Shown here one piece after another: positions 10,963 to 58,953 of a stretch of 64,000 bases of DNA. Below the pieces are notes generated by a model. That model searched no databases. It was not told the origin of the DNA and saw only the letters and a program-made list of their open reading frames with translations. The number at the start of each line of letters is the position of its first letter. The first letter of the stretch is position 1. The position numbers were made by a program, and so were the translations under genes. Source of the stretch: a virus; the IMG/VR virus record IMGVR_UViG_3300047666_000603, positions 1 through 64,000 of that record; one strand, given 5' to 3'.

Positions 10963-11230
10963 AAAACAGAGAATTAATTCCTTATTCTTATTTAGACTAA
11001 ATAAAAATAGCCCCATAATTGAACTTTAATTTTCCCATAAACTTAGATGTGGCGGCGGAGGCGATAGCCGACGGTGGCGCAGAGAAGTTTATTATTACGT
11101 AGCTTGTAACACTTGCTATTCCCGCACTGTGTATAACAAGCACTAATTATGTTAAAAAGTTTTTGTATATTTAACATACTATGTCAGGAATGTTGGCTAA
11201 CTTTGCAGAGTGTATCTTTTCTACCGCTAA
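10937..11230. other. Divergent intergenic region, possible origin or control region
   Basis: No credible gene. An 8-bp inverted repeat ATAAACTT (11037-11044) / AAGTTTAT (11085-11092) encloses a G+C-rich core with GGCGATAGCC that contrasts with the A+T-rich surroundings. A second imperfect palindrome lies at 11103-11140 (CTTGT/ACAAG, then ACAC/GTGT). TAACTTTGC near 11193 is a plus-strand -7 candidate. The location between divergent transcription units fits a regulatory or replication-start region; function is inference. Confidence 0.45.
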
Positions 11231-11295
11231 ACCCAACGTTAATTAGTGTGTATTTCTAACGCAAATCCACTAACGTTTTTTTTGTTGTGTTGGGT
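11231..11295. repeat. attC-like imperfect palindrome N
   Basis: ACCCAAC (11231-11237) and GTTGGGT (11289-11295) are perfect inverses of each other and match the integron core sites RYYYAAC and GTTRRRY exactly. Inside, TTAGTG (11243-11248) pairs with CACTAA (11268-11273). The arrangement outer box / unpaired spacer / inner box / loop is that of attC sites, although the 3' spacer (15 nt) is long. Confidence 0.55.
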
Positions 11296-11426
11296 GTTAC
11301 CCAGTGTGTGAGAATAAGTTGGCAATACAGGATGCTTGCGCCCCACCCCCTCGTTTATTTATTTTCAATGTAGTGTTGGTTCTTCCAAATATATTTACGT
11401 ATATTTACGGAAACAAAACAGTAGCA

Positions 11427-12038
11427 ATGAAAAAAGTAACAAAGAAATTACAGCAGTTTATTGATTCAATTTCAACCATTGGAGACAGTACTATACCTGA
11501 TGATGATGGTAAGATTTACTATTCTAAAGTGGACGGCTCCTATTTAACAAGAGTTGGTATGGAAAACGATTTAAACTACCTATTGAAATTAGGAGTAAGT
11601 GAGCAAATACAGAGCGGGTATGGGGAGCCATCCACCGCTTGTATTGGATTTAACCCAACAGAGCAAAAATGGTACGGGTGGAGTCATAGAGCAATATATG
11701 GGTTTGGCGTTGGTAGTGAATGTAAAAAAGGATCGTGCGGATATTCCGCAAGCAATAAAAAAGATTTTGCAGAAGAAAATTTAAGGTGGTATTGCGACAC
11801 AGACATGGATGAAACGTATAAAGTAGACATTTCTGCAAAAGAGGCAATACAAGAAGGTAAGTTAGGTGTTAAAGTTGAATATACATATAACAATAAAGTG
11901 CCAAACGAATCTATGAGAAGCACCACTCATTTTGTTTTTGAGCCGTATCCAAAGAAATGGGGGAAAGGAGAATGGACTGCAAACTCACTTAATGAAGCAA
12001 GAGAAATGGCTGTAGATTTCGCTAAAGGAGTTTCCTAA
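11427..12038 (+). CDS. Hypothetical cassette-borne protein, 203 aa
   Basis: Start ATG 11427 (MKKVTKKLQQFIDSIS) is chosen because TATATTTAC, a -7-like element, lies at 11400-11408, 27 nt upstream, the usual distance here. No domain recognised; it is mixed alpha/beta with a Cys/Gly patch (SECKKGSCGYSAS) and ends EAREMAVDFAKGVS. The same frame stays open after the TAA for 36 more codons (to 12149), see findings. It lies between attC-like palindromes N and F, so it is probably an accessory cargo gene. Confidence 0.65.
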   Translation: MKKVTKKLQQFIDSISTIGDSTIPDDDGKIYYSKVDGSYLTRVGMENDLNYLLKLGVSEQIQSGYGEPSTACIGFNPTEQKWYGWSHRAIYGFGVGSECKKGSCGYSASNKKDFAEENLRWYCDTDMDETYKVDISAKEAIQEGKLGVKVEYTYNNKVPNESMRSTTHFVFEPYPKKWGKGEWTANSLNEAREMAVDFAKGVS

Positions 12039-12152
12039 CCCCCGCCAAAAATAAACAACAATAGTAATGATATAAAGACACCATTAAGCGCAAAAGAAGC
12101 TGAACATCTATTGACTCAATTTCACGTGCAAAAGCCATTAGGTGATTAATTT

Positions 12153-12216
12153 CCCCCAACACCAATAAAAGTCTTCCTATTAGGATTGTACAAAGGGAGT
12201 ACTTATATTGTGGGGG
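12153..12216. repeat. attC-like imperfect palindrome F
   Basis: CCCCCA (12153-12158) pairs with TGGGGG (12211-12216). After a 4-nt bulge CAATA (12163-12167) pairs with TATTG (12206-12210), then AAGT with ACTT and CTTCC with GGGAG, leaving a loop of about 17 nt and a few extrahelical bases. It lies directly after the extended frame of the preceding gene and begins with the same CAACACCAA found in palindromes A-D. Confidence 0.55.
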
Positions 12217-12223
12217 TTAGTTT

Positions 12224-12251
12224 GTCCAGTTTTTTAACTAATAAACTGGAC
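12224..12251. repeat. 9-bp inverted repeat upstream of cassette gene
   Basis: GTCCAGTTT (12224-12232) and AAACTGGAC (12243-12251) form a perfect 9-bp hairpin with a 10-nt loop. It has no T-run of terminator length. It may be an operator or leader hairpin for the gene starting at 12273. Confidence 0.5.
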
Positions 12252-12272
12252 TTTAACATAACATAAATAACT

Positions 12273-12494
12273 ATGAAAGAACAAGATACAAAGAACAACG
12301 TACTGGACAAATTACCCATAGGTGAGGCTGTAGAACGGTCTTCTTTTTGGTTTAATCAGTTAGGTGATTTTGAAAAATGGCTTAAATACTGCAAAATGAT
12401 TGGTGTAAACACAAGGGAATCTTACAGAACAAATTTTAATCAATATGAAATACTAGATTTATATGAATACCATAAAGCAATAAATAATCTATAA
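12273..12494 (+). CDS. Hypothetical cassette-borne protein, 73 aa
   Basis: Starts MKEQDTKNNVLDKLPIGEAV. Contains FWFNQLGDFEKWLKYCKMIG and ends EILDLYEYHKAINNL; helical, soluble, unknown family. The stop TAA is embedded in TATAACACC, the 5' end of degenerate palindrome E, as cassette stops often overlap attC. Confidence 0.6.
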   Translation: MKEQDTKNNVLDKLPIGEAVERSSFWFNQLGDFEKWLKYCKMIGVNTRESYRTNFNQYEILDLYEYHKAINNL

Positions 12495-12527
12495 CACCAA
12501 CAGAAGTCCTTTCCCTTAACGTGGCAT
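12488..12527. repeat. Degenerate member (E) of the AACACCAAG palindrome family
   Basis: AACACCAACAGAAGTCC ... GTGGCATT aligns with palindromes A and D (AACACCAAGAGAAGTGCC ... ATGGCATTT) but the arms no longer pair well and the CTGTT end is missing. Probably a decayed copy. Downstream, AATGTA / TACATT (about 12536-12582) forms another weak inverted repeat. Confidence 0.4.
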
Positions 12528-12607
12528 TATTAATAAATGTAAATAATTAAGTGCGCAAGTGAATAAAAATATGCGTACATTAACCGATGATAATAAAAAC
12601 GTGAGCA

Positions 12608-12838
12608 ATGAATAAGCCTGAAAATAGTTTAGATGTAGAGGATAAAATAGTTGATATAGTAACAGACCTTTTAAGGGATGATATAACCAAAACAGAAGCA
12701 ATAGATAAGCTATTGATTTTACACAATGTTGTGGGGCGAAGCGAACAGTTAAAGGCTTTTGCTGAACACCTTGATGAAATGCATGGGGGTGAAGAATTTG
12801 CGGTAAATGAAGTTGAACCTTATTTAAAAAGCCTTTAA
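12608..12838 (+). CDS. Hypothetical cassette-borne protein, paralogue of 58729-58953
   Basis: 76 aa, acidic and helical. EQLKAFAEHLDEM with C-terminal VEPYLKSL resembles EQLKDFASHLSNEW and IIDAYLESL of the minus-strand gene at 58729-58953, so the two are probably related. Function unknown. It is followed immediately by imperfect palindrome I. Confidence 0.6.
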   Translation: MNKPENSLDVEDKIVDIVTDLLRDDITKTEAIDKLLILHNVVGRSEQLKAFAEHLDEMHGGEEFAVNEVEPYLKSL

Positions 12839-12840
12839 TT

Positions 12841-12880
12841 GCCTACAACGCTGAGTGTATGGCACGTTGCCAGCACTAAC
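12841..12880. repeat. Imperfect palindrome I
   Basis: TGGCA (12860-12864) pairs with TGCCA (12868-12872) and AGTG (12854-12857) with CACT (12874-12877) across a 2x1 internal loop. It begins with GCCTACAAC directly after the stop codon, similar to the GCATACAAC that opens palindrome K. No clear GTT core at its 3' end, so it is either decayed or a simple hairpin. Confidence 0.4.
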
Positions 12881-12907
12881 TTAATTAATAACACAAAGAT
12901 TAAAGAT

Positions 12908-13126
12908 ATGGTAAAAGATAATTTAGAAAACGAACAGCAATGTGATATACACATTGTTAGGCATAGTTGCGAGATGATAACCGAAGAGTATGTTTATAAA
13001 AACGACTTTAGATTTCAACGAACACAGAAACACGGTATTTGGTTTGTGACCTACGAAAACCACTTAATAACATTTGGACAATATAGACATGATTTAGAAG
13101 AATGGATTGATAGCAATTATGCCTAA
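12908..13126 (+). CDS. Hypothetical cassette-borne protein, 72 aa
   Basis: Starts MVKDNLENEQQCDIHIVRHS at ATG 12908; the longer frame upstream crosses palindrome I. Beta-rich with aromatic residues (HGIWFVTYENHLITFGQYRH). No family recognised. Its TAA stop lies inside the GCCTAAC core of palindrome H. Confidence 0.6.
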   Translation: MVKDNLENEQQCDIHIVRHSCEMITEEYVYKNDFRFQRTQKHGIWFVTYENHLITFGQYRHDLEEWIDSNYA

Positions 13127-13215
13127 CGGTTTGGCTAAGATTACTAGCCTAAGTAATGAACTAATCAATTAAAAACTAAGCATCATAAGGCTATTAATTT
13201 TAGCCGTTGTTATGG
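13121..13215. repeat. attC-like imperfect palindrome H
   Basis: GCCTAAC (13121-13127) matches RYYYAAC and pairs with GTTATGG (13209-13215) with one extrahelical base. Unpaired spacers GGTTT and GTT follow. GGCTAAGATT (13133-13142) pairs over 10 bp with AATTTTAGCC (13196-13205, one G-T), and TAGCCT (13145-13150) pairs with AGGCTA (13188-13193) around a 37-nt loop. At 95 nt it has the outer box, spacer, inner box and terminal-loop design of an attC site and is the best single example here. Confidence 0.65.
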
Positions 13216-13443
13216 TGCGTTAATTAACTTGAAAATGACAAAAGAAGAAAGGAATTTAGACCCACACAGACCTGCAAGATGCGCTATGTGGCTGTATGCT
13301 GACCAATATACTCAGCAGAAAGGTGGTAGTATGGATTTTTGGGATAAGCTATCTGATAGTGATAAAAACACTTGTAGAAGAATGGTAGAACAAATTTCTT
13401 GCACAAGACCTGAATCTGATGATGAGCGGTAATGCACCATAAC
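13209..13443. mobile_element. Cassette-like unit bounded by perfect 10-bp inverted ends
   Basis: GTTATGGTGC (13209-13218) and GCACCATAAC (13434-13443) are perfect reverse complements and enclose one small gene. In integrons the start of a cassette (GTTRRRY side) and its end (RYYYAAC side) come together as one attC when the cassette is a circle, so this complementarity is what an excisable cassette predicts. A miniature element with terminal inverted repeats is the alternative. Confidence 0.5.
13235..13432 (+). CDS. Hypothetical cassette-borne protein, 65 aa
   Basis: Starts MTKEERNLDPHRPARCAMWL at ATG 13235 (an in-frame TTG two codons earlier is less likely). Contains YTQQKGGSMDFWDKLSDSDK and ends CTRPESDDER. 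Helical, charged, unknown. The leader GGTGCGTT...AACTTGAAAATG resembles the leader of the cassette gene at 34974. Confidence 0.6.
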   Translation: MTKEERNLDPHRPARCAMWLYADQYTQQKGGSMDFWDKLSDSDKNTCRRMVEQISCTRPESDDER

Positions 13444-13489
13444 ACCAAGAGAAGTGCCGTTACTTAATGGCATTTCTCGGCTGTTGGGC
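13438..13489. repeat. attC-like palindrome A (AACACCAAG ... CTGTTG family)
   Basis: A 13-bp stem pairs 13449-13461 with 13466-13478 (two G-T pairs) and has a 4-nt loop. An outer AACA (13441-13444) / TGTT (13482-13485) box is separated from it by a 4x3 internal loop. The 3' end GTTGGGC (13483-13489) fits GTTRRRY exactly. It closes the first cassette-like array just before the RNA-repair genes. Confidence 0.6.
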
Positions 13490-13533
13490 CGAGTTTTAAT
13501 TCGGAATTTCTTTTATTTTCCATTTCCTCTACG

Positions 13534-18393: not shown

Positions 18394-18396
18394 TTT

Positions 18397-18448
18397 TTAA
18401 CACTAAGCTAAGTTCCGTTATTTCAATGGAATTTAGCGGCTGTTAGAA
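18397..18448. repeat. Palindrome B (AACACTAAG ... CTGTTAG family)
   Basis: 13-bp stem 18407-18419 / 18425-18437 with loop ATTTC and two G-T pairs; outer AACA/TGTT box (18399-18402 / 18441-18444). The stem sequence differs from A and D while pairing is kept. It stands 14 bp before a late-promoter -33 box. Confidence 0.6.
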
Positions 18449-18462
18449 GTTGTTTCTTTTTT

Positions 18463-25201: not shown

Positions 25202-25286
25202 TATATTTGGAGGGTTAATTACAACGGTTTAAATATAGTGTCGTGGCGCACCCAATAAATGCCACTAAACTTAAAAATTGGTAAAT
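25202..25286. repeat. Weak attC-like region L and promoter-like element
   Basis: TATATTTGG (25202-25210) resembles a -7 element. TTACAAC (25219-25225) is followed by GTTTA (25227-25231) / TAAAC (25266-25270) and GTGGC (25243-25247) / GCCAC (25261-25265), a short nested palindrome. The TTACAAC core is the same as the end of the tRNA-like unit. Could mark the 5' boundary of the two-gene insertion at 25.3-25.8 kb. Confidence 0.35.
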
Positions 25287-25294
25287 ATTTGATT

Positions 25295-25510
25295 ATGAAA
25301 AACAGACTTAAATTTAACCTGCGCTATGCACTATATTTTGTGTTGTGTGTAGTGCTTTTATCTAGCTGCGTTGAACGTAGGTGCTATGATGAAGAGCATA
25401 TACTGTTAATAACCGAAAATGCCTTTTTAGAAGGATATAAAGCAGCATTAATGAAGCAGCACCAAGATAGTGCGTGGAATAATGTGAAACAGCAATACAA
25501 GTTTGACTAG
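25295..25510 (+). CDS. Small lipoprotein, 71 aa
   Basis: Start ATG 25295 (MKNRLKFNLRYALYFVLCVV) gives a clean type II signal peptide with lipobox LLSSC (cysteine at about residue 24), so the mature protein is lipid-anchored in the envelope. The mature part is short, charged and helical (LEGYKAALMKQHQDSAWNN). It could be a superinfection-exclusion lipoprotein or an outer spanin-type protein; inference. Lies in an accessory insertion between the phosphoesterase and the portal. Confidence 0.65.
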   Translation: MKNRLKFNLRYALYFVLCVVLLSSCVERRCYDEEHILLITENAFLEGYKAALMKQHQDSAWNNVKQQYKFD

Positions 25511-25521
25511 TATTACACACA

Positions 25522-25827
25522 ATGGACAAGGCTAAACGAAGTAATTTAAAAAGATTTGAAATGATAAAACTAAAAGCAGAAGTAAACAAAAGTGCAGTAA
25601 TGAGAGAATTACAAGCAAAAGCAATTGAAAGATTTAAAGACTCTTGGCAACCTGAATTACAAGTACAAGCCTACATGAATGGAGCGCATGACCTTTTTAA
25701 ATTATTGCGTTTAGGTGATGTTAGCGTTTCGTTTACGGATAGATTATTTGAAATAGCTTATGATTACGAATCTTCCGTAAGCGAACGAATGGAACAAATA
25801 AAGACCTTATTAGTAAATGAACGCTAA
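25522..25827 (+). CDS. Hypothetical accessory protein, 101 aa
   Basis: Starts MDKAKRSNLKRFEMIKLKAE; Lys-rich helical N-terminus then YMNGAHDLFKLLRLGDVSVS. No family recognised. The stop TAA lies within GCTAACACC, the 5' end of palindrome C, as in cassette arrays. Confidence 0.6.
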   Translation: MDKAKRSNLKRFEMIKLKAEVNKSAVMRELQAKAIERFKDSWQPELQVQAYMNGAHDLFKLLRLGDVSVSFTDRLFEIAYDYESSVSERMEQIKTLLVNER

Positions 25828-25873
25828 CACCAAGCTATAAAGCGTTTCAATGCTTTTATAGCGTCTGTTGTGA
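25822..25873. repeat. Palindrome C (AACACCAAG ... CTGTTG family)
   Basis: Stem from 25834-25843 pairing with 25852-25862 with one extrahelical T (25854), extended by GTT/AAT; outer AACA/TGTT box (25826-25829 / 25866-25869). The stem is completely different in sequence from A and D yet fully paired. Nine bp later comes the late-promoter -33 box. Confidence 0.6.
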
Positions 25874-25880
25874 TTTAATA

Positions 25881-34532: not shown

Positions 34533-34544
34533 GTTTATATTTGC
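34513..34544 (+). promoter_or_regulatory. Host-type promoter for the accessory array
   Basis: TATATTTGC (34536-34544) matches the -7 TAnnTTTG, and a TTTG lies about 20 bp upstream inside the terminator, the host -33 element. It would transcribe the tRNA-like unit and following cassettes. Confidence 0.5.
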
Positions 34545-34589
34545 TCATAACGTTAAATGTAAAAAGCATTTTAATGATTTTTAAATAAT

Positions 34590-34729
34590 GTTGTAAGTAG
34601 TTGCTGCGGTATGCAAGAGTAAATGACTTCTAATTGTCGCCCTGCAAAGGTTGGTCAAAGCAGCGTCCGCAAAACGTGCCGCAAGGTTCGAGGGTTCGAA
34701 TCCCTCTCGTAGCAGCTATTACTTACAAC
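34590..34729. mobile_element. Cassette-like unit carrying the tRNA-like gene
   Basis: GTTGTAAGTA (34590-34599) and TACTTACAAC (34720-34729) are perfect 10-bp inverted repeats that bracket the tRNA-like gene within a few bases on each side. The GTT...AAC polarity is that of integron cassette ends. A MITE-like element is the alternative. Confidence 0.5.
34603..34714 (+). tRNA. tRNA-like gene, atypical, Cys(GCA)-like
   Basis: A perfect T arm GAGGG-TTCGAAT-CCCTC (34690-34706) is followed by TCGTAGC, which pairs over 7 bp with GCTGCGG at 34603-34609, then discriminator A. CTGC (34641-34644) / GCAG (34659-34662), one base out of D-arm register, encloses GGTTGG, a D-loop look-alike. The loop CCGCAAA would give anticodon GCA but lacks U33. 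About 30 nt separate the acceptor 5' strand from the D arm, so the RNA is 112 nt instead of about 75. Alternative loop CTTCTAA (34627-34633, anticodon TCT) is possible. It may be a non-canonical tRNA, a pseudogene or a tRNA-like decoy. Confidence 0.45.
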
Positions 34730-34858
34730 GTTTAGTATAAAAATAGTAAGGGGTGGAGGTTGAAATCTCCCGACTCATAGGTAGCTATAATCTTGTCCAT
34801 ATCCTATGCCAAGCCCGTAGGTTATAGACCCCTTATTTTATTTACACATTGTTGTATG
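34722..34858. repeat. Large attC-like palindrome (four-helix structure)
   Basis: TACAAC (34724-34729) pairs with GTTGTA (34851-34856). Inside, a 10-bp helix joins 34745-34754 to 34828-34837 (core GGGGT/ACCCC). Within it: hairpin GGAGGT-TGAA-ATCTCC (34755-34770), CTATAA (34785-34790) / TTATAG (34822-34827), and CCTATG (34803-34808) / CGTAGG (34816-34821). Helices abut with no gaps at three places. If transcribed it would fold as a compact RNA; as single-stranded DNA it resembles an attC with a branched terminal structure. Confidence 0.55.
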
Positions 34859-34879
34859 TCTTTTTTAATTGCATACAAC
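34851..34879. repeat. Empty or deleted mini-cassette ends
   Basis: GTTGTATG (34851-34858) and CATACAAC (34872-34879) are perfect 8-bp inverses separated by 13 bp (TCTTTTTTAATTG). This looks like cassette start and end sequences with no gene left between them; a simple hairpin is the alternative. Confidence 0.4.
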
Positions 34880-34961
34880 TACAAAGCTATGTGGCGTGGC
34901 TACAACAACGCTGAAATAAACAAACAAGTCGCCCAGCCATGCCATATAGGTAATGTTGTGG
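34873..34961. repeat. attC-like palindrome K
   Basis: ACAAC (34875-34879) pairs with GTTGT (34955-34959). After unpaired spacers of 7 and 5 nt, CTATGTGGCGTGGC (34887-34900) pairs over 14 bp with GCCATGCCATATAG (34936-34949) including two G-T pairs, around a 35-nt loop. The 3' end GTTGTGGTGCG is close to GTTATGGTGCG of palindrome H. Confidence 0.6.
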
Positions 34962-34973
34962 TGCGTTTTTATT

Positions 34974-35195
34974 ATGAACTTGAAATATGCAATACAAGTA
35001 AAAAAAACAGGGAAGTGGTTAAACTTAGATTTTCATGACGGGTCTGAAATAATAACTGTAAATGACTTTACGAAGGCTTATCATTTCGATGACTCAGAAG
35101 CGGCTGAAAAATTCCTTTCTTATCATAGGCTTGATAAAGGGAATCACGAGATGTTTAAGCTCGAAGTATTTGCTAGGCCGATTGAATGGTCTTAA
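34974..35195 (+). CDS. Hypothetical cassette-borne protein, 73 aa
   Basis: Start ATG 34974 (MNLKYAIQVKKTGKWLNLDF); the longer frame enters palindrome K. Alpha/beta with ITVNDFTKAYHFDDSEAAEK. No family recognised. Lies between palindromes K and J, with a leader resembling that of the cassette gene at 13235. Confidence 0.6.
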   Translation: MNLKYAIQVKKTGKWLNLDFHDGSEIITVNDFTKAYHFDDSEAAEKFLSYHRLDKGNHEMFKLEVFARPIEWS

Positions 35196-35303: not shown

Positions 35304-35669
35304 ATGATTCGAATTATTAAAGACAAAACAGAACTGAGAAAAGGAAACTTAATTTTTGTTGATAGCATAGTATTCCCACCAAATTTTATTACCGCTAAAC
35401 CGCAAATTCTAGGTGATGGATGGGAAGAGGATATAAATAAAGAGTGGGAAAATTGCGCCTTTCTAAATGCTAAAGAGCAATACATGAAAGATTTATTCGG
35501 CAATGAAATGGAGAAAAACGAGGTGAAAGTTGAGCAATTGGAAAAAGAAGATTTCGACACATTTCCAAAGTGGAAGATGAGTTACAAAAAGGAAACTAAA
35601 GAGGCTTCTTTTATACACCAAGTTCAAAACAATTATGAGGATTGGACTGGTGAAAAGCTCATCCCTTAA
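35304..35669 (+). CDS. Hypothetical cassette-borne protein, 121 aa
   Basis: Start ATG 35304 (MIRIIKDKTELRKGNLIFVD); the longer frame crosses palindrome J. Beta N-terminus, helical acidic C-terminal half (EMEKNEVKVEQLEKEDFDTF). No family recognised. Followed after 5 nt by palindrome D. Confidence 0.6.
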   Translation: MIRIIKDKTELRKGNLIFVDSIVFPPNFITAKPQILGDGWEEDINKEWENCAFLNAKEQYMKDLFGNEMEKNEVKVEQLEKEDFDTFPKWKMSYKKETKEASFIHQVQNNYEDWTGEKLIP

Positions 35670-35674
35670 TTGCA

Positions 35675-35727
35675 TCCCAACACCAAGAGAAGTGCCGTTT
35701 TTTCAATGGCATTTCTCGACTGTTGTG
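35675..35727. repeat. Palindrome D (AACACCAAG ... CTGTTG family)
   Basis: 13-bp stem (35687-35699 / 35705-35717) with loop TTTTC; outer CAACA/TGTTG box (35678-35682 / 35721-35725). Almost identical to palindrome A, 22 kb away, except in the loop and spacer. Fourteen bp later comes the -33 box of late promoter 4. Confidence 0.6.
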
Positions 35728-35741
35728 AGCATATTCTTTAC

Positions 35742-58732: not shown

Positions 58733-58953
58733 GGTGTTTTTGTTTGTTCAAGGCTTTCTAAATACGCATCTATAATGTCATCGTTAATATCAGGGCAATT
58801 CCACTCATTACTAAGGTGGCTTGCAAAATCTTTTAACTGTTCTCTTTGCTCTACAACACTAAATAAAGCCAATACCTGATCCTCTAATTCAATAACAGGC
58901 ATCGTTTCATCGTTGTAATATTCCTTAAACAGTTTTTTTATTTTTTCTTTCAT
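58729..58953 (-). CDS. Hypothetical protein, paralogue of cassette gene 12608-12838
   Basis: 74 aa. EQLKDFASHLSNEW and IIDAYLESL match EQLKAFAEHLDEM and VEPYLKSL of the cassette gene at 12608. Helical, acidic. Converges with the plus-strand gene (4-nt overlap). Function unknown. Confidence 0.6.
   Translation of the reverse strand: MKEKIKKLFKEYYNDETMPVIELEDQVLALFSVVEQREQLKDFASHLSNEWNCPDINDDIIDAYLESLEQTKTP

Follow-up and report, generated by a model that had tools for sequence, protein, structure and literature searches.

Arrays of probable integron-type gene cassettes in an integrase-less virus contig of likely Bacteroidota phage affiliation

Known cassette systems and the virus record

Gene cassettes are a means by which bacteria trade antibiotic resistance. 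In the classical cassette, the attC site lies 3' of its gene and the non-coding strand is the one that folds. The start box and the end box of a cassette should match, because both derive from one circular attC. Integron-type cassettes in phages are a known kind since the description of CALINs, integrase-less cassette clusters, in virulent phages such as Polaribacter phage P12002L, Tetrasphaera phage TJE1 and Pseudoalteromonas phage PH101, whose published sites recombine with IntI1 (Qi et al. 2023, PMC9892861). In complete integrons, the cassettes adjoin an intI gene, and the IntI-specific additional domain is treated as defining IntI (PMC2426708, PMC9668308).

The record IMGVR_UViG_3300047666_000603 is a virus contig of 73,238 bases, and its first 64,000 bases constitute the window, the whole stretch of DNA analysed here. 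Its terminase is 25-28% identical to the terminases of Flavobacterium, Maribacter and Cellulophaga phages, so that a Bacteroidota host is likely, judging from sequence. Near kin were sought with three genes: the RNA ligase retrieved only distant matches without a common neighbourhood, the primase none, and the terminase no close one; these queries thus yielded no near kin to show gain or loss of cassettes at the same locus. The chain scan, under its strict criterion, detected no arrays in the RNA-ligase relatives (L001-L014).

The arrays described below are most probably integrase-less, CALIN-like clusters of integron-type cassettes in a phage akin to virulent flavobacterial podoviruses, with an inverted polarity. 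They share with class 1 and sedentary chromosomal integrons the AAC/GTT cores, the unpaired spacers, the hairpin sites and the matched cassette ends, but the gene is oriented oppositely relative to attC and the record has no integrase. They resemble the published phage CALINs in being integrase-free attC arrays of lytic phages with small accessory genes and methyltransferase cargo, and differ from them in the presence of several arrays in one phage, a candidate anti-Thoeris cargo gene, the apparent inversion of polarity and the H hairpins that end the arrays.

Organization of the arrays and the H hairpins

In array 1 (11.2-13.5 kb), five small genes on the + strand are flanked by a block of - strand genes and by an RNA ligase gene. 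The small tandem genes with imperfect palindromes between them, reported at 11231-13489 in the earlier note, are indeed found there. The first site (about 11229-11295) contains a 15-base spacer with a T-run. It is followed by tad6 (11427..12038, +, 203 aa), whose product matches PF25188 at 129 bits (cut-off 27) over residues 29-203 and is predicted to be a Tad6 anti-Thoeris protein, an inhibitor of type I Thoeris. The gene is without strict cassette bounds here; a copy in viral contig L019, 66% identical, is bounded by GTTACCTGC..GCAGGTAAC, as seen by direct inspection of the sequence. On the 3' side of tad6 lies a degenerate attC-like hairpin of H type (12154..12222, +; AACACCAA.., scanner score 16.9) that is absent from the covariance-model list. 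A decayed hairpin of H type (12491-12530) marks the end of gene B (12273..12494, +, 73 aa), and gene C (12608..12838, +, 76 aa) lacks a strict left cassette end. Outside the arrays, a - strand segment at 58747-58881 is 66% similar to gene C in DNA and may be a paralog.

The right-hand part of array 1 is formed by an attC-like site between C and D (12843..12962, +; scanner 18.3) with homologs in contigs L029 and L047, gene D (12908..13126, +, 72 aa; cassette 12847-13127 from core to core), a site between D and E (13121..13215, +; scanner 18.9, also in the chain scan), gene E (13235..13432, +, 65 aa) and an H hairpin (13437..13489, +; scanner 20.3), the proposed attI-like docking end. The C-D site and its homologs (L029 2259-2374, L047 11060-11180) themselves encode the initiation codon and the opening residues of the protein that follows, so that different genes acquire a similar N-terminus. 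The four genes other than tad6 have no convincing family match, an Rfam search of the array returned nothing useful, and Tad6 is the only strong family match among the cargo.

Beyond array 1, the record has more arrays than had been claimed: two in the window, at 25.2-25.9 and 34.5-35.7 kb, and one at record positions 66.2-67.7 kb. The decayed 25-kb array opens with an attC-like site (25218..25349, +; scanner 18.8), continues with a unit at 25342-25523 whose ends GTTGTGTGTA/TACACACAAT agree at 9/10 positions on direct inspection, and closes with an H hairpin (25821..25874, +). In array 2, a left-end site (34544..34597, +) precedes a cassette (34590..34729, +) with 10-bp inverted ends GTTGTAAGTA/TACTTACAAC and tRNA-like content at 34603-34714 (Rfam tRNA 22.6 bits, under the gathering threshold of 29; no ARAGORN call). 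A second site (34722..34858, +), a gene-less cassette of 29 bases (34851..34879, +; GTTGTATG..CATACAAC) and a third site (34873..34961, +; scanner 21.3) follow, all of these elements, from the left-end site onward, being recovered in the chain scan. Two small genes without family, of 73 aa (34974..35195, +) and 121 aa (35304..35669, +), each with unit ends matching at 6/10 positions, lead to the terminal H hairpin (35674..35729, +), nearly identical to that at 13437. The gene-less cassettes of about 29 bases at 34851-34879, L065 3571-3600 and L047 9084-9113 have a common core, TGTCTTTTTTAATTGCAT; their end boxes (R boxes) differ among copies and match within each copy. The third array lies beyond the window (L065 2176-3721, record 66176-67721) with covariance sites and genes both on the - strand, and contains a Lar-like restriction-alleviation candidate (L065 2677-2967) that matches PF14354 at 23 bits, below the cut-off of 28.6.

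The H hairpin has the form AACACCAAG-stem-loop-stem-CTGTTG and occupies the right end of the arrays at 13.4, 25.8 and 35.7 kb. Beside the copy at 13437, near copies are located at 35675, 18395 and 25821, and two occur in Maribacter phage Panino. Compensatory changes distinguish the stems of the copies, with conservation of the flanks that lie within the AAC/GTT cores. The hairpin at 18394..18449 (+), with compensatory stem changes, is isolated, with no array around it.

Sites, matched unit ends and core-bounded homology

Sites were scored with an attC scanner of our own, which looks for an AAC core, spacer, stem, spacer and GTT core and was tuned on class 1 integrons, in which it recovers many known sites (four plasmids checked). 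Between 11.2 and 13.6 kb, four sites score 17 or more, against a mean of 0.043 in dinucleotide shuffles, none of 300 of which reached four. In a linked-ends test, which pairs candidate sites joined by a unit whose start box matches its end box, the window yields four links (12956-13127, 13209-13443, 34590-34729 and 34851-34879), against a shuffle mean of 0.06 and a maximum of 1 (n=100). The earlier note would have been contradicted by attC-model matches at the level of shuffled sequence, and both tests give a clear excess instead. Two or more attC-like sites with AAC/GTT cores and a hairpin fold thus stand within a few kilobases, as in a CALIN, by our own scanner and model rather than those of IntegronFinder. 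The linked-ends signature appears likewise in class 1 integrons and phage TJE1, and by chain scan in viral contigs L045, L049, L054-L056, L059, L060 and L064; comparable arrays thus occur in no fewer than eight viral contigs besides this one. One of these contigs carries two neighbouring methyltransferase cassettes, MT-A70 and N6_N4_Mtase (L045 3449-4988).

The perfect 10-bp inverted ends reported for the unit 13209-13443 are exact (GTTATGGTGC/GCACCATAAC), and unit D (12956-13127) likewise has ends matching at 10/10 positions (GTTAGGCATA/TATGCCTAAC). The reading of array 1 as five cassettes therefore stands for D and E (12908-13432), whereas of the 10 positions in the candidate unit ends no more than 4 agree in tad6, 5 in B and 2 in C. 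Matched start and end boxes are also found in 34590-34729 and 34851-34879.

Fifteen sites, none of them from this record and all from P12002L or other viral contigs, went into a covariance model. It matches both regions for which such a check had been proposed, 11.0-13.6 and 34.5-35.8 kb. In array 1, the matches are 12842-12963 (E 0.0068), 13436-13490 (E 0.86) and 13120-13216 (E 1.3), of which the latter two, with E near 1, are weak when judged by the covariance model and draw their support from the other tests. Elsewhere in the window, the model matches 34544-34597 (E 6.5e-5), 18394-18449 (E 2.7e-4), 35674-35729 (E 0.014) and 34722-34858 (E 0.046), and more weakly 25218-25349 (E 0.38) and 25821-25874 (E 2.8), which likewise draw their support from the other tests. 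The nine best matches in the window are all on the + strand. P12002L, itself among the sources of the model, is matched too and by this measure has the same attC type.

The comparison with contig L029 bears on exchange. Gene D has a relative there that is 82% identical, and the DNA homology starts exactly at the AAC at 12847 and stops exactly at the AAC at 13127, with both neighbours different. In this one informative pair, the breakpoints of an apparent whole-unit exchange lie at the cores, as the earlier note had expected, rather than at unrelated positions. A relative of gene E, 78% identical, resides in a contig of 265,845 bases (L023/G002; hereafter the 266-kb contig), which is a phage contig by a terminase match above cut-off. 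A genome scan with gene E hit only one Rhizobiales and one gammaproteobacterial contig and no Bacteroidota cassettes; a plasmid search with D and phage searches with C and E gave no match.

The hairpins might instead be RNA-level elements, such as terminators or hairpins for processing or stability, that close small phage genes and whose AAC/GTT ends are incidental. Terminator-like sites number 6 in the region against 1.8 in shuffles, and the H hairpin of array 1 overlaps one of these (13476-13493); the G-T pairs are biased towards the coding strand; and copies of H stand repeatedly at gene ends, both in this phage and in Panino. Such elements do not account for the matching of inverted ends on the two sides of entire genes and not inside a hairpin, nor for homology that begins and ends at AAC cores, and most sites have no T-run. 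As a full explanation this is improbable, though H may well double as gene-end hairpin and recombination target.

That the modules moved by ordinary recombination, homologous or illegitimate, between hairpin repeats, or through a Y1 transposase that recognises hairpins, is very improbable. Near-identical H hairpins at several places could recombine, and phage genomes are mosaic in nature; yet the matched ends of each unit differ from those of its neighbours, contrary to what homologous recombination between shared repeats predicts. The Y1 origin was rejected, as the record contains no Y1 transposase.

Polarity of the sites, the recombinase and implications

Across the phage arrays examined, the classical arrangement, with a 3' attC and a folding non-coding strand, does not seem to hold; three lines of evidence point to an attC placed 5' of each gene, a polarity opposite to that of class 1 integrons and of the arrays on two Bacteroidota plasmids. 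First, the flank of a site is coupled to its core. Between sites with similar cores (11 pairs, not all independent), identity is 0.68 in the downstream flank against a background of 0.36, and 0.42 against 0.45 in the upstream flank; for the difference over all pairs, permutation gave 21 in 500. Second, the coding strand is the better folder in 39 of 44 phage sites, with 75 G-T pairs against 18. The reverse holds for 11 of 14 sites of class 1 integrons and TJE1 and for all seven sites of the two Bacteroidota plasmids, where the other strand is the better folder. Third, in the 266-kb contig, the array begins about 50 bases from the start codon of a recombinase gene, the array end on that side lacks a hairpin, and every array gene points towards the recombinase. 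The strand bias could also reflect selection on an RNA hairpin, to which the core-flank coupling and the recombinase-side geometry are not easily ascribed.

A classical order, gene and then attC, as in the published phage CALINs, would make the apparent inversion a statistical accident. Unit ends look alike under either polarity, and class 1 integrons, TJE1 and the two plasmids are classical; the coupling, folding and geometry all run the opposite way, and D and E keep related left-hand sites in their relatives while the right-hand sites differ, which makes the classical order unlikely. The upstream site of D as a piece of a classical cassette was dropped in view of the L029 comparison, the core-flank test and the strand folding. 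With inverted polarity, the H hairpin at the right end would be the entry end of an array, and from this position we propose H as the docking site for incoming cassettes.

The absence of an integrase gene, noted earlier for the window, extends to the whole 73,238-base record, perhaps itself incomplete, at the sensitivity of PF00589 and TIGR02249: neither has a match, leaving the record with no detected tyrosine recombinase, and no adjacent intI with the IntI-specific domain is present as in a complete integron. PF00589 has no match either in 13 other viral contigs bearing arrays or Tad6, many of them fragments. In the 266-kb contig, a recombinase gene (L064 16963-17766, -) stands beside the array; at this end of the contig (L064 16963-19845), it adjoins at least five small-gene cassettes. 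Like IntI integrases with the additional domain, the recombinase matches TIGR02249 (157 bits); unlike them, it falls below the IntI cut-off of 265 bits, matches XerA better (NF040815, 177 bits) and is without the IntI-specific segment that precedes the HxLRH motif in IntI1. Recombinases near arrays on Pontibacter and Chryseobacterium plasmids likewise lack this segment. At several other recombinase-bearing loci (L069-L071, L074-L076), the strict chain scan found no arrays, so the recombinase is not always near an array. Its adjacency suggests that the recombinase of the 266-kb contig may act on these sites. The earlier suggestion of a host or unseen phage integrase as the enzyme source becomes more concrete with this phage contig, in which an array lies beside a recombinase.

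In the proposed mechanism, a cassette would consist of one small gene and one attC-like hairpin placed 5' of it, the inverted polarity making the coding strand the folding strand. Site-specific recombination at the AAC/GTT core would have put the cassettes together, as the core-to-core homology and the matching unit ends indirectly indicate, and by analogy with attC would have gone through a folded single strand. The probable point of entry for new cassettes would be the right end of each array, where the H hairpin stands. The recombinase would come from the host or from a co-infecting phage and would plausibly be of the IntI/XerA type seen in the 266-kb contig. The cargo would be expressed in the direction of the adjoining phage genes and would probably serve host take-over and counter-defence.

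Two features look new, the inversion of polarity and the association with a recombinase that has no IntI-specific domain; no report of either appeared in the literature searched, which covered few subscription journals and no preprints outside PubMed Central. Tentatively, Bacteroidota phages may share an integron-like system of their own, with inverted cassettes, an XerA/IntI-like recombinase without the IntI-specific domain supplied by some large phages, H docking sites, and swapping of counter-defence genes among phages. The two features allow a clear test, namely whether the recombinase acts on these sites and which strand is used. If the proposal is true, tools that require the IntI-specific domain would miss systems with inverted polarity and a domain-less recombinase, cassette arrays would be a place to seek new anti-defence proteins, and lytic phages would possess a modular route of their own to gain and exchange small counter-defence genes.
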